DNA of 64,000 bases from a bacterium (GTDB lineage: Bacteria > SZUA-182 > DTGQ01), in NCBI GenBank assembly GCA_023512255.1, contig JAILZY010000005.1, forward strand, positions 1 to 64,000, written 5' to 3'. This document shows positions 5,644 through 63,898 of this stretch, in pieces. Every line of letters begins with the position of its first letter. Positions within the stretch are counted from its first letter, which is position 1. The notes beneath the pieces were generated by a model. The model was not told the origin of the DNA, made no database searches, and was given only the letters and a program-made list of their open reading frames with translations. Position numbers and translations under genes: made by a program.

Positions 5644-5782
5644 CTTTGAAATAATTCCTTGGGATTACTCCACAAGATATGATATCATGTAAACATCATT
5701 GAGTATTGCATTGTCGATAAGATTATCAGAATGGTGATCAAATTTCTTTGCTTTGCCTAGTTTCAAACTCCTGGACTATGAA

Positions 5783-5897
5783 TGGTTTTTTCGCTAAGTG
5801 CTTAACACAAGTATGCAGCGGATCAATTACCCAATCAATTTAGCGTGCGGACCTTGTGCCCGCACCCTTATTGCGCACTTTGTTAGCGATAGAACCA
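5783..5897 (+). mobile_element. RepA MITE-like element, copy 1
   Basis: This 115-bp element has terminal inverted repeats TGGTTTTTTCGCTAA and TTAGCGATAGAACCA. The interior shared with the other copies includes GCGGAT(C)AATTA, ACACAAG and the reverse-complement-like TTGCGCAC near the right end. It has no coding capacity. No target duplication is visible at this copy. It ends about 45 bases before moaC, so it is probably part of the moaC leader. Confidence 0.75.
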
Positions 5898-7336: not shown

Positions 7337-8001
7337 AATTCTACCAGAAAGCCTAGAAAAATAAGCATCCCCTTGGGATCAAAATACCCTGTCCCTGGTG
7401 TGCTGACATCAAATTCCTGCTCGGCATAGTCTGCATTGAAAAGTTTCAGATAGCGGGCCTCAAGCACTAGATAGCTGTTATTGACCCCAAATTTTTGATC
7501 AAAGAACTCAGCATCATCGCTAGCCAAAGCATCCAGCAATAAACGAATTCCAGCGGCTGCATGGTAGCCCGGCTCTTTCAGATAAGTGGGCTTGATATCC
7601 CCCCGCCGGATGCGCCCTGTCTTCCCGTAGACAAAGTCAACTCCCCCTCCTAGATAAGGGACCAAAACCTGGCTTTGACTATAGCGCAGGGCATAGGTCA
7701 GGCTAAGTCCAAAGGGGACATAGTACACAGACCACTCCCTGACTACCTCATGAACATAATCGGCGCTGAATCCAAGCTCGATATTTTTTACTAGCTCCTG
7801 CCCAAGTTTCAGCCCCCCAAGGACAGAAAAGGTATGTCCAAAAGCGGTCTCCCACTTCTCGTATTCTGAGGGACGAAAAAAGCCGCCATGAAGCTCAAAC
7901 AAAGTTCCTGTCCTCACCGAGGCAGCCCTAGCTTCAGATGCTACTAGCAGCGTGACAGACAAAAAGATGCATATAGCAGCAGCTACTATCCTCCTACCCA
8001 T
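7333..8001 (-). CDS. Outer-membrane beta-barrel protein (probable independent start)
   Basis: Inside and in frame with the giant ORF, an ATG at 8001 is preceded by TAAGGAG at ideal spacing (six bases) and opens a complete signal peptide (MGRRIVAAAICIFLSVTLLV...ARA). The 222-aa product then alternates strands such as 'VLGGLKLGQELVKNIELGFS' and 'VPYLGGGVDFVYG' and ends in Phe (LGFLVEF), as outer-membrane barrels do. The segment just upstream is the transmembrane end of the propeller protein. I infer two genes whose separating stop is absent, or an internal translation start; a sequencing indel is also possible. Confidence 0.6.
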   Translation of the reverse strand: MGRRIVAAAICIFLSVTLLVASEARAASVRTGTLFELHGGFFRPSEYEKWETAFGHTFSVLGGLKLGQELVKNIELGFSADYVHEVVREWSVYYVPFGLSLTYALRYSQSQVLVPYLGGGVDFVYGKTGRIRRGDIKPTYLKEPGYHAAAGIRLLLDALASDDAEFFDQKFGVNNSYLVLEARYLKLFNADYAEQEFDVSTPGTGYFDPKGMLIFLGFLVEF

Positions 8002-11000
8002 AGACATCTCCTTACTAGATCTAGATATAGAAAGATCATAGAGAGAAAAAACTAGATACAGAAAAGCACATCCTGCGCTGATAAGCAAAAACATCCCCAC
8101 TAGCCAGAAAGCCTTGCTCCTCGCTAATGAATTTTTTGCCAGCGAATTTTGAGAATTGGCCAAGGCGCTGATAAAACAGCTACTGTCAGGGAAAGCAAAG
8201 CGGTTTTCAGGATTAAAATATGATGACGATTTTTTGGCATCACCGGGGCCGGTCCCATAGCGACTCAAGCCCTTTGAGGTGCCAACCCAGATATCCTGAC
8301 CATAGACGACAATGGCAGTAATACGATTATCAACCAGGCCATCAGCCGTGGTGTACAGAGTCCAAGTGTCCTTATCATAATCATATCGGCTAAGGCCTCC
8401 ATCGCTTCCATCCGCTTTAGTGCTCCCGCATCCAATCCACAGGGCGGAGTTAGCCTTATCTACAGCCAGAGCAGAGATAAGATTGCTCCCTAGGTTAACC
8501 TTCGGCTGCCCCAAGAAATAATGCTCAATAAATCGGTCGTTTTGAATATCAAACCGATAAAGCCCTCCCTTAGTTCCCTGTTTATCCTGTGAATCAGTAG
8601 ATATTCCACTGATCCAAAGGTATCCAGACTCATCAGCCTTAATTTTAGGGAGAAAATCGGTCTCCAAGATAGCGCCTTCACCTGCTGAGTTGGTAGAATA
8701 ATGGGTCCATTCTTTTTCCTCAACCTTGAATCGGGAAAGCCCCCTGTATTCTATGTTCCACTTTTCTCCATCTTTAATATAAGCAGCCGTGGACATCCAC
8801 ACATCCCCATCGCCGTCAACCTCAAGGGCAATTATCTGCTCACCCGGCATTCCTCCCCCGCTATGAGAAGAGGTGTTTTCTTTAGTATATGAGGTCCACT
8901 CATTCTTTGAGATCTCATACCGGATGAGAGCATACTGATTTGAAACCGAGTTAGCATCAGCCGCCCCATCCCCTGACTGGCCATATCCTTGCTGGCTGCC
9001 GGGTAGGATGGCAATCCACAGCCTGCGGTTCACCTTATCAAAGGCCAGGCCAGCGATGTAATTTTTATCCAAGGTCTTACCAGTGGTTGTCTGGTTGTAC
9101 TTTTTCCAGGAAGTGCCATCATACTTGCTCAGGCCCTGAGATGTGCCTACATACAGCTCATTGGATACCGTGTCCACCGCTAAGGCCGTAATATAAGAGC
9201 CAGCAAGATTAGGTTCCTTGGCCGGAGTGATGCTCTGCCAGTGATTCGGATCATCGAACCTGCTCAATCCGCCTGAAGTACCCACCCAGAGGGTTTCTCG
9301 ACAGAAGGCCAGGCAGGTAATATTATCTGAGATCAAACCGCCCGATGTATTGCTATTGGTGTAGGTTGTCCAGGAAGGGGGAGCAGGAGATTGACCTGAT
9401 CCTGCGCCTGAGATAGTAAACTGATGCTCTTGGGTCGGCTCTCCAATAGCTGCCCCACCATCCTGGTGAGTGAAGTAGAACCGGTATTTATATACCCCGG
9501 GGGTATTCCCCTTGAATTGATAACGATATTTTTTCCCATCAGCATAATTCTGGTCATTCGGATCGGCCTGGATCATGGTGTATTTTTCGCTACTCTGATA
9601 TTGCCCGTCATGGTCAAGATCGATCCAAAGCTGGGCGACTGAAGGCTCTGGTCCAGCGGTTTGCTCCGCACCCATAGGCTGATAGAGGTATAGGACCCGA
9701 AATTCAAATGACGTGCCCGCATCTCCTACAGTCGGGTTGACTCCCCCGCTTTGGTAATTAGCCTCTCCTGTCCAGAACAGCCAGGGGGAATTTATTCGAA
9801 CGCCCTTAGACTGGTTGGCACTTCCGGCTGCCGGGCGAGAGTCTTCATCCTCAAAATAAAACCGGTAGCTGATCAGGCCGCTCCCCTGATAGCTTGGCGG
9901 TAGGGTTAAAGGTATACTTCGGCTATAGATTTGGCCATCGGCTGTGTCTGAATCCGCGGTATCAGGATCTAGGGTGTACTTTTCCTCCGCACTGTATTGG
10001 CCATCGCCATTGAGATCAATCCACACCTGAGCCTTGGTCGGACTATGGCCATCCATATCCAGGTAATTGATTTTAAAGGTATAGGTTTTCCCATTGCCTC
10101 CAATGGTTGGACTAACTCCAGATGAGAAATCCTCATCTTCCACCCAACCTAAAAAGGACCGAACCTGCGTGCTGTAGATATCAAAGCCGTAAGGCCAGGA
10201 TAGGGCAAGGGTCGAAAGGCTTCGGTTATCCATCCAGACTATCTGGCTGAAGCTGCTGCTGCCTGAGATAGCGGGAGATTTTTGAAACCCCGGCATAGCG
10301 CAAATTTCAAATCCTGGGCTGGTGATTGCCCCCCCGATAAGCCCTCCATCTGCCGTGATCCGGGCTCCTCGGATATCGGTGTCATAGCCAGGCACGGCCT
10401 TTCCGGTGGCATCCTTGTAGATGGGCTGTGAGTCCCAGACTACCAGGTAGTTTCCATGAGCCTGATCCCAAAAAACCCGCGGGTTGGTCTGGTCCCCCTC
10501 AAGCGTACAGATAATGAATCGCGGTTTAACCACGCGGCCGTCCGGTCCGATGATCGCACCGTAAATATCCTTGCCAAACAAGCTGTTGACCGCAGTCATG
10601 CTCTGATGCTCCCAGACCACCAAAAAATTATTACCATCTGAGGCTATGGCCGGATGCTCCTGGCTGGTATTTGGGTCTGTGCAGACCGAATTGCCAAGGG
10701 CCTTATTATTATGATCTAAGGCAAACTGGCCGGCCATGACCTGGCCAGTATTAGGATCAACTGGATTGGCATAGAGATGAGAGTAGGTGTCTCCATCATT
10801 GGCTTCTGGCCGAAAATCCTGCCAGACAACTAGGTAGCGGCCTCCTCCCCAGGCTACGGCCGGATTGATCTGGTCTGTACGATAGTCTTGGTCATAGATG
10901 ATAAAATTGTCACTTGCCGCTGGATCTGGCCACACTTTGGCCGTAGAAGTTTCAGGGTCATATGAAATAAGCGCCGCATGGATGTTTTTCCCGCTGTTAT

Positions 11001-17088: not shown

Positions 17089-17667
17089 CTATCTGTTTTC
17101 ATTAATTAATCTATCCAGAATTATAGCTACTGCCGCTCTGACGGACAGATGATTATATCTACCCTGCCCATAGATTGGCTCAATGGTGAAATCCATCGTT
17201 TCCATCAGACCTTGCTCTATCCCCCAGCCAGTTCCAAAAATGATAAAATATAACTGCCGATCCCGACGCATTCTCTCACGCAACTCCTCGTAGGAGACCG
17301 TATTCCTCTGTCTGCGGGCACAGGTTACAATCGTAACCGGCTCTCTCCCATATTTTTTCTTCAGACCCTCAAGGCATTCTCCGAGGCTACTTACGACCAC
17401 AACATTCTCTAGAGCATCCCGCCGCGTTGGATTATATTGTGCTCCATAACCTGTCTGCCAGTGTTGTATCAGCCGCTCAACCAATTGTCTGTGAGCCTGA
17501 ATCGGAGTTATGATATAGAAGCCTTCCACCCCGAATGTTCTGGCTGTTCTTGAAATATCATGAAGGCTGGAAGTAGTTATCGAGGTGGTAACGACCTCCT
17601 TGTTTTTATTATAAACAGGGTAATGAAGTAGTCCGATAGAGATCACCGATCGTTCCACAACCTTCAA
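17089..17667 (-). CDS. SPOUT-fold RNA methyltransferase (PF09936 type)
   Basis: This 192-aa protein resembles the family annotated as SAM-dependent RNA methyltransferase (Methyltrn_RNA_4). Characteristic stretches are 'GLLHYPVYNKNKEVVTTSIT' near the start, 'DISRTARTFGVEGFYIITP', 'FGTGWGIEQGLME' (SAM-binding knot loop) and 'NHLSVRAAVAIILDRL' near the end. The family commonly sits between trmD and rplS in Desulfobacterota-like genomes, as here. The RNA target is not known to me. It starts 75 bases after trmD. Confidence 0.85.
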   Translation of the reverse strand: MKVVERSVISIGLLHYPVYNKNKEVVTTSITTSSLHDISRTARTFGVEGFYIITPIQAHRQLVERLIQHWQTGYGAQYNPTRRDALENVVVVSSLGECLEGLKKKYGREPVTIVTCARRQRNTVSYEELRERMRRDRQLYFIIFGTGWGIEQGLMETMDFTIEPIYGQGRYNHLSVRAAVAIILDRLINENR

Positions 17668-17742
17668 AAGTCCCTCTCTTGCCTATAATCCAATAATTTA
17701 TACGGTCTGACAATTATTCCACATTCTTTCTGCTCCCCCTCT

Positions 17743-18462
17743 TCAAGGGTCCTTCAGCAATTCAATATCTTCAGCGCTCAAGATCGCCTTTTTGAAAAGA
17801 TCTGGTCTCCTTTGACTTGTGCGCAACAAAGATTGTTTGCGCCTCCACTTGCGGATTCTTTCATGATGTCCGGAGAGCAAAACCTCGGGAACTTCCCGGC
17901 CTTCAAAGCTCCTTGGCCGTGTATACTGAGGATAGTCGAGGAGATAGTCCGAGAAGGATTCAACCTCCAATGATTCCTCAGAGCCTAACACCCCAGGAAT
18001 CAGTCTGACTACAGCATCCACTACCACCATAGCCGGCAGCTCTCCGCCGCTCAGAACATAATCTCCGATTGAAATTTCCCTATCGATCAGCGTATCCCTA
18101 ACTCTCTGATCAATTCCCTCATAGTGGCCACAGACAAGAATAAGATGACTTTCTTGAGCTAACTCCTTAGCCATCTGATGGCAAAAAAGATCCCCCTCTG
18201 GCGATAGATAAATCTTCTTAGCCTCTAAGCCTTCCTGACTTACTGCCCTAATGGCTCGACAAAGAGGTTCGGCCTTGAACACCATGCCCGGCCCGCCTCC
18301 ATAGGGAGCGTCGTCGATCTTGCGATGCTTATCTGAGGTAAAATCCCGCAAGTTGTGTATCCGTATTCTTACCAGCCCCTTCTCCTGAGCTCTCTTGAGA
18401 ATACTCTGCTGGATAATCCCAGAAAACATCTCCGGGAATATGGTAATAATATCAAAGAGCAT
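17743..18462 (-). CDS. trmD: tRNA (guanine-N1-)-methyltransferase TrmD
   Basis: This 239-aa enzyme methylates G37 in tRNAs reading CNN codons, preventing frameshifts. The trefoil-knot SAM site is visible: '[13 protein letters not shown]' near residue 110, '[18 protein letters not shown]' near 130, and 'LDYPQYTRP' near 175. It starts [13 protein letters not shown] like other TrmD proteins. It overlaps the end of rimM by 11 bases, indicating translational coupling. Confidence 0.96.
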
Positions 18463-18982
18463 CAGAGAGATTCAATAATCCTTTCAACAGATGGATGGTA
18501 ATTCTTCTTGTTTCTAGGTTTATCTCCCGAACTACCTCTTTAATGGCTGGGATAAGATACTCCTTGTGATCATCCCTAACTACATACACATCGTTACTCC
18601 CTGTGGGGAAGATATCCTCAACAACCCCTAAATGCAGCCCCTCCTCAGTGTAGACATCCATACCTATGAGCTGGAAGCAGTAATACTCATCCTCACCCAG
18701 GGGATATAGCTCATCTTCAGGAACACAAAGCATACCCCCTTTTAGCTTTTCGGCATCACTCATGGTATGGCATTCTTGTGATTTCATAATTACATAACCC
18801 TTATGAAATCGAACCCTTTCAATCGAAAGGCTTCTTTGCCCTGAGGGAGTTACTAAAAAGACCTCTTTCAGAGACCGAAATCTTTCGGGGAAATCAGTCA
18901 GGAGATAAACTTTCACCTCTCCCCTATGGCCATGAGTGCCAATGATTTTGCCAATCTGAACGAGGCCCTTAATGTCCTTCAA
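18452..18982 (-). CDS. rimM: Ribosome maturation factor RimM
   Basis: This 176-aa factor is needed for 30S 3' domain assembly with S19. Its N-terminal RimM barrel ('[21 protein letters not shown]') and C-terminal PRC barrel ('[20 protein letters not shown]', '[20 protein letters not shown]') are complete. The start is unusual. The first in-frame canonical codon is TTG at 18982, but the strong GGGAGG upstream is spaced best for an ATC two codons earlier. It lies between khpA and trmD. Confidence 0.93.
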
Positions 18983-19001
18983 GTAGATGCCAAACCTCCC
19001 G

Positions 19002-19029
19002 CTTGGATGTTATTCCTTGGATGTTATTC
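19002..19029 (-). repeat. 14-bp perfect tandem duplication over the khpA stop
   Basis: CTTGGATGTTATTC occurs twice in direct succession (19002-19015 and 19016-19029). On the minus strand the first copy carries the khpA stop codon TAA. It looks like a recent replication-slippage duplication. Confidence 0.8.
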
Positions 19030-19260
19030 AAGGATTTCCAATACCGCCCGTTTGCCGATTTTCGTGGCCGCGGCGCTCAAAACCGTCCGCATTGCCCGCG
19101 CCGTCTGCCCCTGTTTGCCGATTACCTTACCCAAATCAGTCTTAGCCACTCGCAGCTCCAGCACGGTGGTTCGTTCACCGTCAACTTCAGTCACACTAAC
19201 TTCCTCAGGATAATCAACCAGTGCTCTAGCGATATCTTCAATTAATTCCTTCATACCCAT
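19024..19260 (-). CDS. khpA: KH domain RNA-binding protein KhpA
   Basis: This 78-aa protein is a single KH domain of the KhpA (YlqC) type, with the [15 protein letters not shown] GxxG loop near residues 43-57 and the start '[19 protein letters not shown]'. KhpA binds RNA and acts with KhpB in cell-envelope growth control in other bacteria. GGAGGT lies nine bases before the ATG. It lies between rpsP and rimM, its usual place. Confidence 0.93.
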
Positions 19261-19319
19261 TTTTTCCCTACCTCCGTAAAATTAATAACTACCTATTTGA
19301 ATTGGAGATTACAATACAA

Positions 19320-19562
19320 CTAGATTACTCCTTGTCTGCTAAATATCTGCTTTACGGTGTCAGATGGTTTTGCGCCTTTCTGCATCCAAGAGATGGCTTT
19401 CTCTGTATTGATTCTGATTTCAGCTGGGTCTTTCAGCGGATCATAGTTTCCAATAAGATCCAGATATTCGCCATCGCGTGACTTTCTGGAATCTATAACC
19501 ACGATTCGATAAAATGGCCGCTTTTTCGCTCCCAGTCTCGTTAATCGTATCCGTAGCGCCAA
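19320..19562 (-). CDS. rpsP: Ribosomal protein S16
   Basis: This 80-aa protein matches S16: 'ALRIRLTRLGAKKRPFYRIVV', 'SRKSRDGEYLDLIGNYDP', 'INTEKAISWMQKGAKPSDTV'. I choose a TTG start: it gives the canonical M-A-L-R-I-R-L start and has GAGGAGG eight bases upstream. A GTG three codons earlier overlaps that site. The ribosome-binding site is formed by the last Arg codons of ffh. Confidence 0.95.
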   Translation of the reverse strand: MALRIRLTRLGAKKRPFYRIVVIDSRKSRDGEYLDLIGNYDPLKDPAEIRINTEKAISWMQKGAKPSDTVKQIFSRQGVI

Positions 19563-22070: not shown

Positions 22071-22093
22071 GATTAAGCTATAATGGCACTAAT

Positions 22094-22195
22094 TGGTTCT
22101 TTTGCTAAGTGCGAGAGCAGATCCAATTACCCAATCAATTGTAGAGGCGGACCTTGTGTCTGCCCAGCTTGCGCACTTTGTTAGCGAGAGGACCA
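22094..22195 (+). mobile_element. RepA MITE-like element, copy 2
   Basis: This 102-bp element runs from TGGTTCTTTTGCTAA to TTAGCGAGAGGACCA. It is flanked by the direct repeat CTAAT (22089-22093 and 22196-22200), a 5-bp target duplication. It separates the TATAAT box from znuA, so a transcript from that promoter would carry it in the leader. Confidence 0.8.
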
Positions 22196-54691: not shown

Positions 54692-54711
54692 AAAATGCTC
54701 TCAAAACCAAG

Positions 54712-54825
54712 CGATCTTTTCGCTAATAAAGTGCACAAGCTGCGGCGGCACAAGGTCCGCGAGCTACAATCGATAGCCTAATTTATCCGCTGCCCACTTG
54801 TGTTACGCACTTAGCGAAAGAACTC
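54712..54825 (-). mobile_element. RepA MITE-like element, copy 5
   Basis: This 114-bp element runs from CGATCTTTTCGCTAATAAAG to TTAGCGAAAGAACTC. The interior (CACAAGGTCCGC, TAATTTATCCGCTGCCCACT) closely matches copy 4. Terminal bases have diverged and no target duplication is seen. Its orientation is that of copy 4. Confidence 0.75.
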
Positions 54826-57009: not shown

Positions 57010-59823
57010 TTATTTTACCCCTGCTGCCTCGTGCTGCTCTTCTATCAGCTCGATCCTCTCCTGAAGGGATCTGGCTTGCTGGTTATCTGGCTGAAGGCGA
57101 AGGCTCTCTTGAAGCTCGACGTAGGCAGCTTGGTATTTCCCCTGACGGAAATAGGCTGCTCCCAGATAGTAGTGGAGAAGAGGATTTTGTGGATCGATCT
57201 CTTTTGCCTGCTGCCAAGCGAAAATTGCCTTGTTATCATCACCCGCCTGAGAGAAGGTGAGGCCGACATTGATCAGGTGCACTGACAGGTCAATCCCTTT
57301 TCCTTGAAGAGCTATCTTCCACTCAGCCAGTGCCTTGTCAATCAGATTTTTTTCAAAATAGGCATTCCCCAAATTAAGATGTGCTCCTGCCAAATCTGGT
57401 TTGAGAGAAAGTGCCTTTTCCCAGGATCGAATAGCCTGATCAGTCTGGCCAAGCCCCTGCTGAGCTTTTCCCAGCGAATAATAGGCCAGAGGATCATCCG
57501 GGTGTCGGCTCAGCACCTCCTGAAATGAAGACAGGGCTAAAGAAAACTCTCCCTTCTCAAGATAAAGGAGCCCAAGCTGATGGTAGCCTTCGGTGCAGTT
57601 CTGATTAAGATCAATGGCTCGGCGATACTCTCGCTCAGCCAAGGTGTAGTCCTTGAGGCCAAAATAAGCCATTCCCAGATTCAAGATAGCCTTCTGATAA
57701 TTAGGCCGAAGGGAAAGTGCCTTGCCAAGTTCCGCGATAGCCTCAGAAAAGCGGCCTTGGCTCAAGTAGATACTCCCTAGATTGTTGTGGGCCTCTGGGC
57801 TATTGGGATCAAGGGAAATAGCCCGCTGGCAGTATTGTATGGCTAGCTCTGGTTTCCCCTGTTGGCCATAGATCAGCCCTAGGTTATGGTATGCGGAAAC
57901 ATTCTGGGGATCGATTTTGAGAGCTGTTTCAAAATGAGAAGCGGCTTTGTCTAAATTCGCCTGACTGAAGAAAAGGTTGCCCGCCTGATTATGGGCCTGG
58001 GCATAGTTTGGATCAACCTGTAGAGCCTTTTCTATGGCCGCCATAGCCTCATTGCTTCTTCCCAGCTTGTCGCAGGCAAGACTAAGGTTGTGGTAGATTT
58101 CAGGATATTGAGCCCAAGCCAGCGCACGCTTGAATTCATCCAAGGCTAGCTCAAAATTGCCCTTATGATAGTATATCAGGCCAAGCTGGTTATGGGCGTC
58201 GATATCGTCAGGATTTAGACTGAGGGCTGTTTTGAAAGAAGCTTCTGCTTGGTCAAAAAGTCTTTTCTCCTGATATACCCGACCAAGATTAACATGGGCT
58301 GCTGTGTTTTCGGGGTTAGCCTGGATGATTTTTTGAAAGCAGAGCATGGCCTGATCATAGAGATGAGCATAAAGATATGATATCCCTTGGTCAAGATAGT
58401 CTATCAGGTAGATCATATCCTTGGGATCCTGCCCTTGAGTCTTTCTGCCTGCTACTGGCCTGGTCCACACATAGCCTAAGCTTTTTAGCCGAGCCCGAAT
58501 CTCTGCGCTCATCTCCACCTGCCGGGCTGTCTCAGGAGGAGCAGCCGGCGAGGAGGATTTTTTCAGCCGCTCAAGATTTCTCTTCCAGTGGGCAGAAAGC
58601 TTGCTGTCCTGGGCAGCCAGGTTTTTCATTTCTCTGCTGTCTTCGCTCAGGTGATAGAGCTCAGGGCGAGGTGCCTGAATGTACTTCCAAGCCGGGGTTC
58701 GTATTCCCTCAAGTCTGCTCCAGCCAAAGTTAAGCTCAGGACTGAGGCTCTCACAGAGGAGTTGTTGGTGTATCTCCTTGGTTTGACCACGGATCAGGGG
58801 AAGCAGGCTCTGTCCTGCAAGCCCAGGGATAGGGCTAAAACCATAGAGATCAAGAACAGTGGGCAGGATGTCCATGTTGCTCACCATTGCCCCACAGGAT
58901 TTCCCCCTGGGCAGAAGATCAGCAGGGGCTTTGATAATTAAGGGAACCCTGATTGTTGGCTCATAAATGAAAATAGCATGGGTGGCTTCGCCATGCTCTC
59001 CGAGGCTTTCTCCGTGATCTGCGGTTAGGATGATGATTGTCCGCTCGGAAAGCCCCATCTTTTCCATCCCGCTGATCAAATCACCAAGGCATTTATCGGT
59101 ATAGGCGATTTCCCCATCATAAGGACATTTAGGATAGGCTTGCGCAAAAGGAGCGGGCGGAGAGTAGATGGCATGGGGATCAAAGTAGTGGAGCCAGAGG
59201 AAAAATTTCCCACCTCTATGCTCCCGAAGCCAGGTAAGCCCAAGGTGGGTGATTTCTTCGGCTTTCCGCTCATTATATAAAATTTCCGTTGGTTTTCCCC
59301 GAGCCGGAAGCCGATCTTCATAGAAGTCAAATCCCTGATCCAGCCCAAAGATAGAGTCAAGGACAAAGGCTCCGACACAGGCGGCGGTCTGAAAGCCGTG
59401 TTCCTTCATGATTTCAGCCAGAGTGCGAACCTCTTGTCCGAGAATGAAGTTTCCATTATTGCGAACCCCATGTTGAATAGGGTAGAGGCCAGTCATGATT
59501 GAGGCATGAGCGGGCAGGGTGATCGGGACAGGGGTAATGGCCTGAGTAAACATGATCCCCTGAGCAGCCAGGGTATCTATGGTGGGGGTTTTAATCTGCT
59601 GATAACCATAACAGCCAAGATGATCGGCCCTCAAGGTATCAATGGTGATGAGGAGAAGATTATAGTTGCCTCCTCCTGACCCTGTCTTCATAGCATTGAG
59701 CTGGGCATTGAGCCGGCTTGCTTGAGAAAGGAAAAAAGCTGCGCACACCAGGGTAGCTATGCTAACCAGAAAGTAAGATTTGCTGCCGCGACGACTAATT
59801 TTGACCATACTAATTCTGACCAT
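57010..59823 (-). CDS. Alkaline-phosphatase-superfamily hydrolase with TPR array
   Basis: This 937-aa protein has an N-terminal membrane anchor (about 17-35). A sulfatase-like domain follows (about 54-400; metal site 'LLLITIDTLRADHLGCYGY' with D62, 'ILTADHGESLGEHG' near 245). About thirteen TPRs run from near 455 to 925. At the nucleophile position it reads ITLPAHASIMTG (T102) rather than C/S-x-P-x-R, so it is probably not a formylglycine sulfatase but may be a phosphatase, phosphodiesterase or transferase. A 15-base near-duplication at the start encodes MVRIS-MVKIS; either ATG may be used. It lies next to the exported-paralogue array. Confidence 0.85.
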   Translation of the reverse strand: MVRISMVKISRRGSKSYFLVSIATLVCAAFFLSQASRLNAQLNAMKTGSGGGNYNLLLITIDTLRADHLGCYGYQQIKTPTIDTLAAQGIMFTQAITPVPITLPAHASIMTGLYPIQHGVRNNGNFILGQEVRTLAEIMKEHGFQTAACVGAFVLDSIFGLDQGFDFYEDRLPARGKPTEILYNERKAEEITHLGLTWLREHRGGKFFLWLHYFDPHAIYSPPAPFAQAYPKCPYDGEIAYTDKCLGDLISGMEKMGLSERTIIILTADHGESLGEHGEATHAIFIYEPTIRVPLIIKAPADLLPRGKSCGAMVSNMDILPTVLDLYGFSPIPGLAGQSLLPLIRGQTKEIHQQLLCESLSPELNFGWSRLEGIRTPAWKYIQAPRPELYHLSEDSREMKNLAAQDSKLSAHWKRNLERLKKSSSPAAPPETARQVEMSAEIRARLKSLGYVWTRPVAGRKTQGQDPKDMIYLIDYLDQGISYLYAHLYDQAMLCFQKIIQANPENTAAHVNLGRVYQEKRLFDQAEASFKTALSLNPDDIDAHNQLGLIYYHKGNFELALDEFKRALAWAQYPEIYHNLSLACDKLGRSNEAMAAIEKALQVDPNYAQAHNQAGNLFFSQANLDKAASHFETALKIDPQNVSAYHNLGLIYGQQGKPELAIQYCQRAISLDPNSPEAHNNLGSIYLSQGRFSEAIAELGKALSLRPNYQKAILNLGMAYFGLKDYTLAEREYRRAIDLNQNCTEGYHQLGLLYLEKGEFSLALSSFQEVLSRHPDDPLAYYSLGKAQQGLGQTDQAIRSWEKALSLKPDLAGAHLNLGNAYFEKNLIDKALAEWKIALQGKGIDLSVHLINVGLTFSQAGDDNKAIFAWQQAKEIDPQNPLLHYYLGAAYFRQGKYQAAYVELQESLRLQPDNQQARSLQERIELIEEQHEAAGVK

Positions 59824-59879
59824 ATTATGGTTACTCTTTTTTATTTATGTATGGTTACTCTTCTTTCTTTTTTTGAGCT

Positions 59880-60440
59880 TTAATTTTCTGGTGAGAGAAA
59901 ATTTTCCCAAATGAAATAGATGATTGACTCCTGTGGAGATACCCCAATATTGCGGGCATAGTTATAGAGATTAGCTCCAATGTAGTCGGCTGTCTGATCA
60001 TACAGGTATAGAAAAGGAGTCTGACTGGCCAGCTCATAAAAGTGAAGGGCATAGTTGAGATAGTCATACAGAGCGCAAATCTCCATGAGGGAATGATAGA
60101 TATTGTAGGGATTCGTAGAAGAATAATACGGGAGGGTGGAGAAAAATGGGGATCCGTAGTAGCTACCATACAGAGGATCAATTCCTCCGACCAAGGGTCT
60201 ATAAGCGCCATAGGCCGCCAGAGCGCTCCAGCCGGCAGCAGGCAGGTAACTTCTATATATACCTGCATATATACCGAGGGGAAATAGCCCCTGGGCCGAA
60301 GCTTGAGCAATGAAACCGAATAAGAATAAACCGATTAAACCAATTATGATTCCGCTGGACACTAAGCTGATATGTAATTTGGCCATAGGGTGAACACCTG
60401 TCAGATGTACTTGAAATTTCAGTAAAGATTTTAGGGTCAT
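59880..60440 (-). CDS. Exported protein, possible distant member of the array
   Basis: This 186-aa protein has an extended N-terminus with a signal peptide ('LVSSGIIIGLIGLFLFGFIA', then AQASAQ) and a Tyr/Ser/Gly-rich middle. Its end 'ANLYNYARNIGVSPQESIIY' resembles the C-terminal 'ANLSYLLAYGNALGVSPSSL' of the neighbouring paralogues. AGGAGAC lies about nine bases before the ATG. It lacks their PPYN-LWPLWSP motif. I therefore list it as a possible diverged member. Confidence 0.7.
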   Translation of the reverse strand: MTLKSLLKFQVHLTGVHPMAKLHISLVSSGIIIGLIGLFLFGFIAQASAQGLFPLGIYAGIYRSYLPAAGWSALAAYGAYRPLVGGIDPLYGSYYGSPFFSTLPYYSSTNPYNIYHSLMEICALYDYLNYALHFYELASQTPFLYLYDQTADYIGANLYNYARNIGVSPQESIIYFIWENFLSPEN

Positions 60441-60631
60441 GATATTGTCTCCTTATTAAAACAATAGGGGGGGCAGGCAAGTTGAGATCGCAATCTCACT
60501 GTTTCTGCCCCCATTGCTTTCTCAAAACTTACCCTGATGCCCCCCTCTGTTTCCTAATCTCAACATGCCTCAGGATAGATTATGTCTGTATGCTCTTTTT
60601 CCTCATCATTCTCGATTATTTGGTTGCGCTA

Positions 60632-61219
60632 CTAGATTGGCGGCAGCCCAAACACCTGCGCCGCAGTCAGAAGCGATGATGGGCTTACTCCTAGGGCATT
60701 CCCATAGGCCAAAAGATACGACAAATTGGCCAGATCGAACAGATAGATGGCTTGGGTGATCGGCAGTGTGGCTGGAGTCGGATCAATCAGAGAGTAGCCA
60801 GCCAATAAGCTGATCGGAATAGGAGCTCCAGTGGTCGGATCAAGATATTTAGCTGGAGGCCAGGGATTTATGCCATACAGAACATCAAAGAAGACCAGGC
60901 CGGTTGGAGTGTTGTAAAGGAGCCAGGGTGGCTGCTCACCCATAGGCCAACCACTAACTGGACCTTTCAGTGTCCACCAGGTTGGGTCAAGAACCAAGGC
61001 TGGCTGCACTGGCAGGATAGTGTTTCGGGTCACTGAAGTAACAAGTGGCGTAGGACTACCCGCGGCATTTGGTGGCGAGAGCACCGGAGACCAAAGCGGC
61101 CAGAGGATATTGTAGGGTGGCAGAGCTGCCCAATTTTGTGCCTTGGCTACCGAAACCCTTACAGCCACAATAGCCAGGACAAATAATAAAATCACTAAGT
61201 ATCTTTTTTCCCTAAACAT
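60632..61219 (-). CDS. Array paralogue 1, subtype II exported protein
   Basis: This 195-aa protein has a signal peptide ending near AKAQ, then WAALPPYNILWPLWSP, 'TRNTILPVQPALVLDPTWW', 'YNTPTGLVFFDVLYGINPWP' and 'YLDPTTGAPIPI'. The subtype II end is 'FDLANLSYLLAYGNALGVSP', closing with VFGLPPI. AAGGAGG lies seven bases before the ATG. It follows the subtype I gene after 41 bases. I recognise no domain; no cysteine or enzyme motif is seen. It is secreted or periplasmic by its signal peptide. Confidence 0.88.
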   Translation of the reverse strand: MFREKRYLVILLFVLAIVAVRVSVAKAQNWAALPPYNILWPLWSPVLSPPNAAGSPTPLVTSVTRNTILPVQPALVLDPTWWTLKGPVSGWPMGEQPPWLLYNTPTGLVFFDVLYGINPWPPAKYLDPTTGAPIPISLLAGYSLIDPTPATLPITQAIYLFDLANLSYLLAYGNALGVSPSSLLTAAQVFGLPPI

Positions 61220-61260
61220 GGCTATTCCTCCTTAAATAACCCATGAGCGGGCAAGTGTCA

Positions 61261-61815
61261 TCATATCGGCGGCAGACCCCAGATTTGAGCAGGTGTCAGC
61301 AGACTGAGGAATGCTGGTCCGGTAATCCCATAAGTCAGGGCATAGGTTGCATTGGCCAGTGGAATATAGTATTCCAAATGAGCCAATGAGGTTGGCAGCA
61401 AAAGAGACCAGGTGAGGGGTAGGGTAATCGGAACCGGAGCGCCAGTAACCGGATCTTGCATATACTTGGGCGGCCAAGTATTTAGACCGTAGATCTGATC
61501 AAAATAGAGCAGCCCGCCTCCAAGAGTGGCTGGCGCATTATAGAGAGCCCAAGGCAGGGGTTGAGCAGGGTCCCAGGCTAGGCCTGGTTGCACCGGAAGG
61601 ATAGTGTTTTTGGTAACATCGGTTACCAGGGGGACCCCTCCTGGTGACAGGGCAGGTGACCAAAGAGGCCAAAGAACATTATAAGTGGGCATAAGCTGCC
61701 AGTTTGCTGCCTCAACTGATGAGATAACCATCAAACTCAGGCAGCTTACGATCAGCAGAGTGAATGCAAGGGTAGTAAAGAGAGAGAGTCGTCTGGATTT
61801 TCTTCCATGAAACAT
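61261..61815 (-). CDS. Array paralogue 2, subtype I exported protein
   Basis: This 184-aa protein has a signal peptide, then WQLMPTYNVLWPLWSP, 'ALSPGGVPLVTDVTKNTILP', 'YNAPATLGGGLLYFDQIYGL' and 'MQDPVTGAPVPITLPLTWSL'. The subtype I end is 'PLANATYALTYGITGPAFLS' closing with IWGLPPI. It carries GGG in the middle where subtype II has TGVV/TGLV. AAGGAG lies about eight bases before the ATG. It is 41 bases upstream of its subtype II neighbour, and a 201-base gap precedes it. Confidence 0.88.
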   Translation of the reverse strand: MFHGRKSRRLSLFTTLAFTLLIVSCLSLMVISSVEAANWQLMPTYNVLWPLWSPALSPGGVPLVTDVTKNTILPVQPGLAWDPAQPLPWALYNAPATLGGGLLYFDQIYGLNTWPPKYMQDPVTGAPVPITLPLTWSLLLPTSLAHLEYYIPLANATYALTYGITGPAFLSLLTPAQIWGLPPI

Positions 61816-61979
61816 CGGTTAATCTCCTTCTTTAAACCTTATGAAATCCACATTTTTGAGTTCTGCAAGAGAATTGTTCACGGCCCATTTCCTAAAAGCC
61901 ATGATCATATCTCCTGGAGTTTCTAACAATAATATTTATACTTGCCAAATATATTTGCCTAAAAACCTTAAGCTAATAT

Positions 61980-61998
61980 GGGGGAAGACTTTTCCCCC
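61980..61998 (-). terminator. Weak hairpin after array paralogue 3
   Basis: GGGGGAA (61980-61986) pairs with TTCCCCC (61992-61998) 19 bases beyond the paralogue 3 stop on its strand. No T-run follows, so its termination role is uncertain. Another GGGGG/CCCCC hairpin lies within the last codons of that gene. Confidence 0.35.
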
Positions 61999-62016
61999 GC
62001 CCCCTTCCCCCCTGGC

Positions 62017-62583
62017 CTAGATTGGGGGAAGCCCCCAGATGTCGGCGTAGGTCAGGAGTAAAGCTGGGTTTACCCCAAGTGCAAAGCCATAGCCAAGCAG
62101 ATAAGTCAGGTTGGCTGTCTCGATAAGAGACAGAGCAGTCTCTTTCAGCAGCGGCAGCGACAGAAAGGTATAGTCAGGCGGCAGGGTAAGGGGAACTGGC
62201 GCTCCAGTAACCGGATCGAGAAGTTTGGCCGGCGGCCAGGGATTGAGACCATAGACGATATCATAAAAGACCACACCAGTTGGAGTATTGTAAAACAGCC
62301 ACGGAAAAGCAGTCCCCATTGAGCCAATGTAGGTAGGAGTGGGATTCAGGGCCAGAACAGGCTGTACCGGCAGGATGGTATTTCGAGACAGCTCTGGAAT
62401 TATCGGAGTCGGCAGGCCAGTAGTTGGGCTTTTTGGCGACAGCACAGGAGACCACAGCGGCCAAAGGACATTGTAGGGTGGCATAGCTACCCAGTTTTGA
62501 GCTCGGGCCGCTGGATTGGCCAGCCCACCGGCGATGATCAGAAAAAATACCAGGGCCACAATATATCTTGCTTTCTTATGCAT
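62017..62583 (-). CDS. Array paralogue 3, subtype II exported protein
   Basis: This 188-aa protein has a signal peptide (to about AARAQ), then WVAMPPYNVLWPLWSP, 'PELSRNTILPVQPVLALNP', 'YNTPTGVVFYDIVYGLNPWP' and 'LLDPVTGAPVPLTLPPDYTF'. It ends 'ANLTYLLGYGFALGVNPALL', closing with IWGLPPI. I start at the ATG with AAGGAGA seven bases upstream; a TTG two codons earlier opens the longer frame. It is 62 bases after the subtype I gene on its strand. Confidence 0.88.
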   Translation of the reverse strand: MHKKARYIVALVFFLIIAGGLANPAARAQNWVAMPPYNVLWPLWSPVLSPKSPTTGLPTPIIPELSRNTILPVQPVLALNPTPTYIGSMGTAFPWLFYNTPTGVVFYDIVYGLNPWPPAKLLDPVTGAPVPLTLPPDYTFLSLPLLKETALSLIETANLTYLLGYGFALGVNPALLLTYADIWGLPPI

Positions 62584-62645
62584 ACCCAATTCTCCTTAAA
62601 ATATCTATCATCATCTATCATCATCTCTCAGCAGCGCCTCTATAT

Positions 62646-63179
62646 CTATATCAGTGGCGCTACTCCCCAGATATCAGCGCTGGTCAGCAGGCTAGCTATC
62701 GGCACTCCATACTGATAGGAGTAGATGGCATTGGCTAGAGGGATAAAGTACTCAAACCCTTTCAAGGGTGTCGGCAGAAGCACTGACCAGCCAGCAGGCA
62801 GGGTAATTGGCTTTGGCGCTCCAGTAACCGGATCGACCATGTAGCTTGGTGGCCAGGGATTTAAGCCATAGTAAAGATCAAAGAAGAGCAAGCCACCGCC
62901 AAATGCGGTCGGAGTATTATATAGAGCCCACGGTTTTCCAGTTCCGGCTGGCTGTAGGGGATCCCAAGCTAGGGCCGGTTGCACAGGAAGGACTGTATTT
63001 TTGGTAAGGCTAGTTACCAGGGGAGTCCCTCCTGGTGACAGGGCCGGAGACCAAAGAGGCCACAGGACATTATACGGTGGCAGAGCCGCCCACTGGGCCT
63101 GAACTACAGCCGGAAGAGCAAGGCTGACAGCAATTATCATAACTAAGGCCAAGATTAAAGACTTCTTTCCTTTTAACAT
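62646..63179 (-). CDS. Array paralogue 4, subtype I exported protein
   Basis: This 177-aa protein has a signal peptide (MLKGKKSLILALVMIIAVSL...VVQA) and then QWAALPPYNVLWPLWSP, 'ALSPGGTPLVTSLTKNTVLP', 'YNTPTAFGGGLLFFDLYYGL' and 'MVDPVTGAPKPITLPAGWSV'. It ends 'PLANAIYSYQYGVPIASLLT' and IWGVAPLI. GAGGTGA lies six bases before this ATG; an upstream in-frame start at 63212 would add eleven residues before the signal. Identity with paralogue 2 extends to the DNA level. Confidence 0.88.
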   Translation of the reverse strand: MLKGKKSLILALVMIIAVSLALPAVVQAQWAALPPYNVLWPLWSPALSPGGTPLVTSLTKNTVLPVQPALAWDPLQPAGTGKPWALYNTPTAFGGGLLFFDLYYGLNPWPPSYMVDPVTGAPKPITLPAGWSVLLPTPLKGFEYFIPLANAIYSYQYGVPIASLLTSADIWGVAPLI

Positions 63180-63246
63180 AGGTCTCACCTCATCAATTCT
63201 TGGTAGCTTCATTTTTGAGAAGCTATGTAATTTATGGGTTGAGCGA

Positions 63247-63272
63247 GGCTGGAGAAAAAATCTCTTCCAGCC
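63247..63272 (-). terminator. Hairpin after array paralogue 5
   Basis: GGCTGGA (63247-63253) pairs with TCCAGCC (63266-63272), with partly pairing bases in the loop. On the transcribed strand the loop is T-rich but no T-run follows the stem. It lies in the 158-base gap between paralogues 5 and 4. Confidence 0.4.
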
Positions 63273-63337
63273 CTTGTCAAATTACTCCGTCAAATTACTT
63301 CTTCACACGTGTAGGGTTGATACTCTTATCCTAAAGA

Positions 63338-63898
63338 TTAAATATAGGGTATTCCCCAAAGTTGCGCCGGTGTTAGCAGGGTTAAGAATTCCGCTGGGGT
63401 CAAACCGTATAGAAAAGCATAGGTCAAATTAGCCGTATCAATCGTCGTCGCAAAGTGGGTCAGCTTGGTAGGCAGCAGGGTTGAGTAGCCGATTGGCAGA
63501 GTAATTGGCAGTGGAGCACCGGTCGCTGGATCGACTAAATATGGCGGTGGCCAGGGTTTGAAACCATAAATGTCTTCAAAGAAGGTTATCCCACCGCCGA
63601 AAGCAGGAGGGACATTATAGGCAAGCCATACTGGCCCCTTAGCATTCAGAACCGGATCCCAGATTATGGCTGGCTGTACAGGAAGAATGGTATTCTTGCT
63701 GAACTCAGTAATTATCGGTGTAGGCAGACCGGTGGTCGGGTTAACAGGAGAAAGGGGGGGAGACCAAAGCGGCCAAAGGATATTGTACGGAGGAAGTGCT
63801 GCCCACTGTGCTTGAGTCAAACCAGCAAAAAGTAGACTTCCAACAATGGCAAGCACAAACATATAAGCAAATAATAATTGTCTTTTTACTCTCATCAT
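63338..63898 (-). CDS. Array paralogue 5, hybrid subtype exported protein
   Basis: This 186-aa protein has a signal peptide (to about GLTQA) and then QWAALPPYNILWPLWSP, 'TTGLPTPIITEFSKNTILPV' (a subtype II trait), 'YNVPPAFGGGITFFEDIYGF' (a subtype I trait) and 'LVDPATGAPLPITLPIGYST'. It ends 'DTANLTYAFLYGLTPAEFLT', closing with LWGIPYI. GAGGG precedes two adjacent ATG codons; either may be used. The array may continue beyond the window. Confidence 0.87.
   Translation of the reverse strand: MMRVKRQLLFAYMFVLAIVGSLLFAGLTQAQWAALPPYNILWPLWSPPLSPVNPTTGLPTPIITEFSKNTILPVQPAIIWDPVLNAKGPVWLAYNVPPAFGGGITFFEDIYGFKPWPPPYLVDPATGAPLPITLPIGYSTLLPTKLTHFATTIDTANLTYAFLYGLTPAEFLTLLTPAQLWGIPYI

Follow-up and report, generated by a model that had tools for sequence, protein, structure and literature searches.

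A family of almost uncharged exported proteins, confined to one bacterial order and encoded beside a sulfatase-fold/TPR enzyme

Introduction

In PEP-CTERM/exosortase systems, exported proteins that are numerous, dispersed and unrelated in sequence share a C-terminal feature and have dedicated partners, among them the tetratricopeptide repeat (TPR) protein PrsT. In TPR enzymes of the O-GlcNAc transferase type, a catalytic domain modifies proteins. Here we describe a locus comparable to both, at 57010-63898 of a 64,000-nucleotide stretch of bacterial DNA (the window; positions 1 to 64,000 of contig JAILZY010000005.1, assembly GCA_023512255.1, GTDB lineage SZUA-182; DTGQ01), in which five tandem genes for exported proteins, here termed family A and typified by the motif PPYNTLWPLW, precede genes for an unrelated exported protein (family B) and for an exported enzyme joining a sulfatase domain to TPRs. 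Like PEP-CTERM proteins, family A and its companions are dispersed, exported and mutually unrelated with a common C-terminal feature, but their C-termini are hydrophobic and often Ile-ending, with neither the PEP motif nor the basic cluster, and the linked enzyme is of the sulfatase fold and not an exosortase. The enzyme resembles O-GlcNAc transferase in joining a TPR superhelix, with repeats that match those of that transferase, to a catalytic domain, but it is exported and its catalytic domain belongs to the alkaline phosphatase superfamily. Family A also recalls bacterial matrix, sheath and coat proteins in its low charge, its Pro/Gly/Tyr/Thr-rich companions, its high copy number and its lack of an enzyme signature, but differs in having a compact, Trp-rich predicted fold that matches none in the libraries searched. 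The literature consulted contained nothing on the family A motif or on an association of TPRs with a sulfatase.

Results

Five family A genes lie head-to-tail on the minus strand, as a first-pass annotation of the sequence had proposed, and their open reading frames (ORFs) encode proteins that are approximately 49-58% identical to one another. In order of transcription they are a (63338-63898, encoding 186 amino acids), b (62646-63212, with a possible start at 63179 giving 177 amino acids), c (62017-62583), d (61261-61815) and e (60632-61219), and are followed on the same strand by family B (59880-60440) and the enzyme gene (57010-59823), which lies directly downstream in a probable operon; the intervening gaps are approximately 40-200 bp. 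The listed ORF of c begins at a TTG codon (62589) and its likely start is the ATG at 62583, which follows the sequence AAGGAG. All five proteins have a hydrophobic N-terminal signal with predicted cleavage between AxA and Q(N)W, in agreement with the signal peptide and mature start first assigned to them, and all contain the expected shared motifs, although these are not strictly invariant (PTYN replaces PPYN in d, and RNT replaces KNT in c and e). Promoter and terminator scans gave no more than shuffled sequences would, and a search for an RNA element found none.

Each array gene has a one-to-one orthologue at locus L125 of a sister species of the same genus (genome G001; the host is G000): a at L125:10105-10668 (83% identical), b at 9413-9964, c at 8828-9397, d at 8138-8806 and e at 7518-8105, with ratios of nonsynonymous to synonymous substitution (dN/dS) of 0.12, 0.08, 0.08, 0.11 and 0.09, respectively. 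These low ratios, together with Shine-Dalgarno sites preceding several genes of the stretch, show that the ORFs are real, constrained genes. The enzyme gene occupies the same position in the sister species (dN/dS 0.11), and dispersed family A copies gave values of 0.09-0.26; orthologous family A copies are 75-90% identical. The product of 59880-60440, initially taken for a probable sixth paralogue, instead represents a different exported family, with a Gly/Tyr-rich N-terminal part and a helical C-terminal part; a forced alignment to family A gave 19% identity and a profile-profile comparison a probability of 1.4%, covering the signal peptide only. Its syntenic orthologue (L125:6777-7301) adjoins the array in the sister species and is 68-72% identical, with a dN/dS of 0.21. 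A model of family B built from one sequence was helical and of low confidence (predicted local distance difference test score, pLDDT, 63.6), and was therefore left out of the fold search.

A tree of 94 mature family A cores groups every array gene with a single gene of the sister species, and gene order is the same in both. Relatives of b, c and d occur, again in the same order, on one contig of a genome from another family of the same order (G004), with a relative of a on another of its contigs; no member of the array clade was found in two genomes from the same family as the host (G002 and G003). G003 and G004 have separate lineage-specific tandem sets of five and three genes, respectively. 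Codon usage of the array genes is ordinary, falling between the 28th and 68th percentiles, with no sign of high expression. The array is thus old and kept rather than recently amplified, and its gene-by-gene orthology, low dN/dS and ordinary codon usage do not support recent amplification for dose. The earlier proposal that a local expansion reflects selection for dose or variety is likewise not supported, 15 of the 20 host copies lying outside the array, on other contigs.

These 20 copies were found in a host genome of 3.83 Mb in 172 contigs. Copy numbers in related genomes were 33 in G001, 14 in G002, 21-22 in G003 and 13-14 in G004, such that the five genomes of the order carry 13 to 33 copies each, as counted by a simple longest-ORF rule in fragmented metagenome-assembled genomes (MAGs) in which several copies sit at contig ends. 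One such copy (L014; G000 C18 31091-31561) has no usable start, a TAG immediately preceding its signal sequence, and is possibly a pseudogene or an assembly edge. No family A gene was present in four genomes from other orders of the phylum or in 377 further genomes; among 386 sampled genomes only the five of the order matched, and of 84,980 species scanned by motif only three MAGs (Zod_Metabat.896, CSMAG_2299 and CSMAG_150) did so. Viral contigs, phages and plasmids also gave no matches, and an origin from such elements was rejected. Family A is therefore restricted to a single order of uncultured bacteria from sediments and cold seeps and is multi-copy in all five of its genomes, in line with the restriction to one clade that the first-pass annotation had offered as support for novelty.

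Searches of Pfam, with single proteins and with 43 members, gave no meaningful match to family A, and NCBIfam, PHROGs and PDB sequences gave none above the cut-off, so that no characterised family in the libraries searched accounts for these proteins and family A is a previously unnamed exported family. An AlphaFold2 model of the mature part of a, made from 43 sequences, was confident (pLDDT 93.7, predicted template modelling score 0.88) and describes a single compact domain of six short strands followed by C-terminal helices. Foldseek returned no match at E <= 0.001 for this model in the PDB or among viral models, and relative to these two sets the predicted fold appears unlike any solved structure. 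No catalytic residues are evident in the model, consistent with the absence of an enzyme signature noted at the outset.

A hydrophobic N-terminal signal is present in all 94 family A copies with an anchored core motif. The mature parts of these 94 proteins are rich in Pro (17.3%), Leu (15.8%), Thr (9.3%), Tyr (6.0%) and Trp (4.6%) and almost uncharged, with Lys, Arg and Glu each below 1% and Asp at 3.1% (approximately 5% charged residues in total). Cys makes up 0.1% and occurs in 10 of the 94; the mature array proteins are Cys-free, as originally described, and have no lipobox Cys at the cleavage site such as marks bacterial lipoproteins. Paralogues have almost the same aromatic core and vary in their tails: copies differ chiefly in a Pro/Thr/Ala-rich insert of 0 to approximately 140 residues between the constant core and a C-terminal segment that often resembles SLLTPAxxxG. 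The last residue is Ile in 42 of 98 family A proteins. Outside family A a C-terminal Ile was found in 26/53 uncharged exported proteins as against 5/194 other exported and 17/263 cytosolic proteins, in a pattern first noticed in the data and counted afterwards. Counted by sequence family the contrast was 12/23 against 4/99 and, after merging of fragments of the exported family E described below, approximately 8/19 against 4/99 (p = 3.5e-5).

The enzyme encoded at 57010-59823 contains a sulfatase domain (PF00884, E = 1.9e-45) and approximately 13 TPRs. Conserved D-T-x-R-A-D-H and D-H-G-E motifs, together with this domain, place it in the alkaline phosphatase superfamily, and it shares both domain and metal-ligand motifs with type I sulfatases and phosphotransferases, from which it differs in its nucleophile position, its TPR extension and its co-expansion with uncharged exported proteins. 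All six aligned proteins carry an invariant Thr at that position (T-L/F-P-x-H), and the alignment shows no formylglycine-type C/S-x-P-x-R active-site motif in the window enzyme. Such a Thr suggests phosphotransfer or other ester chemistry rather than the reaction of a formylglycine sulfatase. O-GlcNAc transferase TPRs were among the closest solved relatives of the repeat region, and likeness to PrsT was sub-threshold. The five genomes of the order have 12, 12, 13, 8 and 8 copies of the enzyme and genomes of other orders 0-1, and the gene adjoins array genes in another taxonomic family too.

The same loci encode other small, almost uncharged exported proteins, unrelated to family A and without a Pfam or NCBIfam match. 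Two of these, families E (ending ...TSTLLLLGI) and F, which like the enzyme alignment were seeded near family A genes, were found in four of the order's genomes but not in the rest of the phylum; they often adjoin family A, with A-F-E runs in G002 and G003, which represent two genera. With seeds left out, five enzyme copies have an A, E or F gene within 600 bp, where 0.63 would be expected, and all 11 linked pairs of the enzyme with these families are on the same strand. Uncharged exported genes were also enriched within 800 bp of enzyme copies outside family A loci (12/72 against 0/38, p = 0.0075), the control being genes at window positions 1-57000.

At L199:2864-11531 of G001 a TPR-sulfatase gene stands amid approximately nine genes for uncharged exported proteins of at least four unrelated families, a cluster with relatives at L189 (G000 C131) and L224 (G004 C101) and thus conserved across the order; C-terminal ends in clusters of this type include ...ANPLLFAYLSSLFI, ...DEGVFSLVLL, ...LSVLLPFI and ...TLVFLILYLSLEE. 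Exported Gly/Tyr/Ser repeat proteins (GGSSLYGG, YGSS) that resemble low-complexity structural proteins are encoded at L204:1264-2115, L211:8298-9410, L226:3130-3618 and L161:2762-3817, some of them adjoining TPR-sulfatase genes. Around dispersed family A copies of G000 and G001 no neighbour family was shared by more than 4 of the 108 neighbours scanned, dockerin type I and pyrroloquinoline quinone (PQQ)-type propellers each reaching 4/108. A link to multiheme cytochromes (5/134 neighbours against 0/45) was too weak for a claim.

Extension of the contig past the window edge revealed further exported genes. Just beyond it (L006:2434-2865; contig C62 64434-64865) is a fast-evolving exported protein with an RCTxI...EFL motif, 40% identical between the sister species (dN/dS 0.28), whose relatives adjoin other family A copies (L007:8355-8867 and L116:3615-4232). 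Farther along are two adjacent, mutually related, large Hsp70-like proteins (L006:13362-16370 and 17610-19472). Palindromic intergenic repeats of approximately 130 bp (TTCGCTAAGTGCGTAACACAAG...GCGCACTTTGTTAGCGA), resembling a non-autonomous miniature element, occur every few kb in the host genome (window 5780-5890, 22080-22190, 54710-54810 and others; L118:9500-9610; L111:2390-2510). Spread of family A by flanking repeats was rejected since these palindromes are found genome-wide and are not specific to its copies.

Discussion

We favour, tentatively, a reading in which family A proteins are units from which a protein structure peculiar to the order is built at the cell surface or outside the cell, and in which the TPR enzyme is their dedicated modification partner. 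Their low charge, common C-termini, numerous conserved copies, lack of a catalytic signature and low-complexity companions suit structural units more than they do enzymes or receptors. A structural or binding role outside the cytoplasm, as first suggested for the array, is still the best reading and is now backed by genomic company, although this falls short of proof. From these data we infer location, assembly and the roles of the enzyme and the C-terminus: family A proteins would be exported, compactly folded, almost uncharged units of a coat, sheath or matrix, made together with unrelated exported proteins of like composition (families B, D, E, F and others). The sulfatase-fold enzyme, by comparison with O-GlcNAc transferase and other enzymes that carry TPRs and modify proteins, is a natural candidate partner, which would probably recognise this class of proteins outside the cytoplasm and modify or attach its members, perhaps through the shared hydrophobic C-terminus often ending in Ile or, alternatively, through the Pro/Thr/Ala-rich insert near it. 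A bolder version, in which the order has a new export-and-assembly system, with the TPR part of the co-expanded sulfatase-fold transferase recognising a hydrophobic, Ile-ending tail common to unrelated uncharged exported proteins and with the Trp/Pro-rich family A domain, a new fold, as the main folded unit of the resulting extracellular structure, seems to us doubtful.

Several observations weigh against the structural interpretation. Compact, confidently predicted folds could equally bind ligands, most dispersed family A copies have no recurrent neighbour, and ordinary codon usage means that the array proteins need not be abundant. Only approximately 11 of 53 enzyme copies lie near A, E or F genes, and the linkage p-values are optimistic because several linkages are orthologous and not independent. 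The filtering by composition was also crude, as was the signal test, in which signal peptides were judged by hydropathy only.

Alternatively, family A could have diversified into a set of exported proteins that bind glycans, peptides or hydrophobic compounds, with one substrate per paralogue and a site lined by the conserved aromatics. The many old paralogues with one-to-one orthologues, the compact fold with its many conserved Trp, Tyr and Pro residues, and the dispersal of copies beside genes for hydrogenase, cytochromes, PQQ-type propellers and phosphate uptake would suit such a role. We nevertheless consider it unlikely, given that divergent specificity would predict the reverse of a near-invariant aromatic core with variable tails, that no solved binding fold matches, and that unrelated low-complexity proteins, themselves improbable holders of a binding pocket, have the low charge and the C-terminal signature too. 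A role as surface identity or contact-dependent factors in kin recognition, adhesion or antagonism, diversified by tails, would account for inserts of such variable length on a constant core, but the orthologues are not fast evolving and no immunity gene pattern was seen beside the copies, making this explanation distinctly improbable. A little less credible still is the proposal that each copy is an accessory or assembly factor for a neighbouring exported machine; some orthologous pairs do keep their neighbours, for example PQQ-type propeller proteins (L114 and L136), but most copies stand alone and no neighbour family recurs beyond the few cases given above. Many dispersed copies and lineage-specific tandem duplications in two genomes might suggest selfish or neutral genes without a cell function, an explanation rendered highly implausible by strong purifying selection (dN/dS 0.08-0.26 across copies), old orthology and flanking repeats that are not tied to the copies.

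Dozens of conserved genes in a single order are given over to exported proteins unrecognised by the libraries searched, with a confidently predicted fold unlike any solved structure. Such organisms can be abundant, as record titles give a coverage of more than 1,000-fold for CSMAG_150 in its sample. Should the C-terminal tail and the TPR enzyme prove to be a sorting or modification pair, they would represent a new kind of surface-protein assembly.

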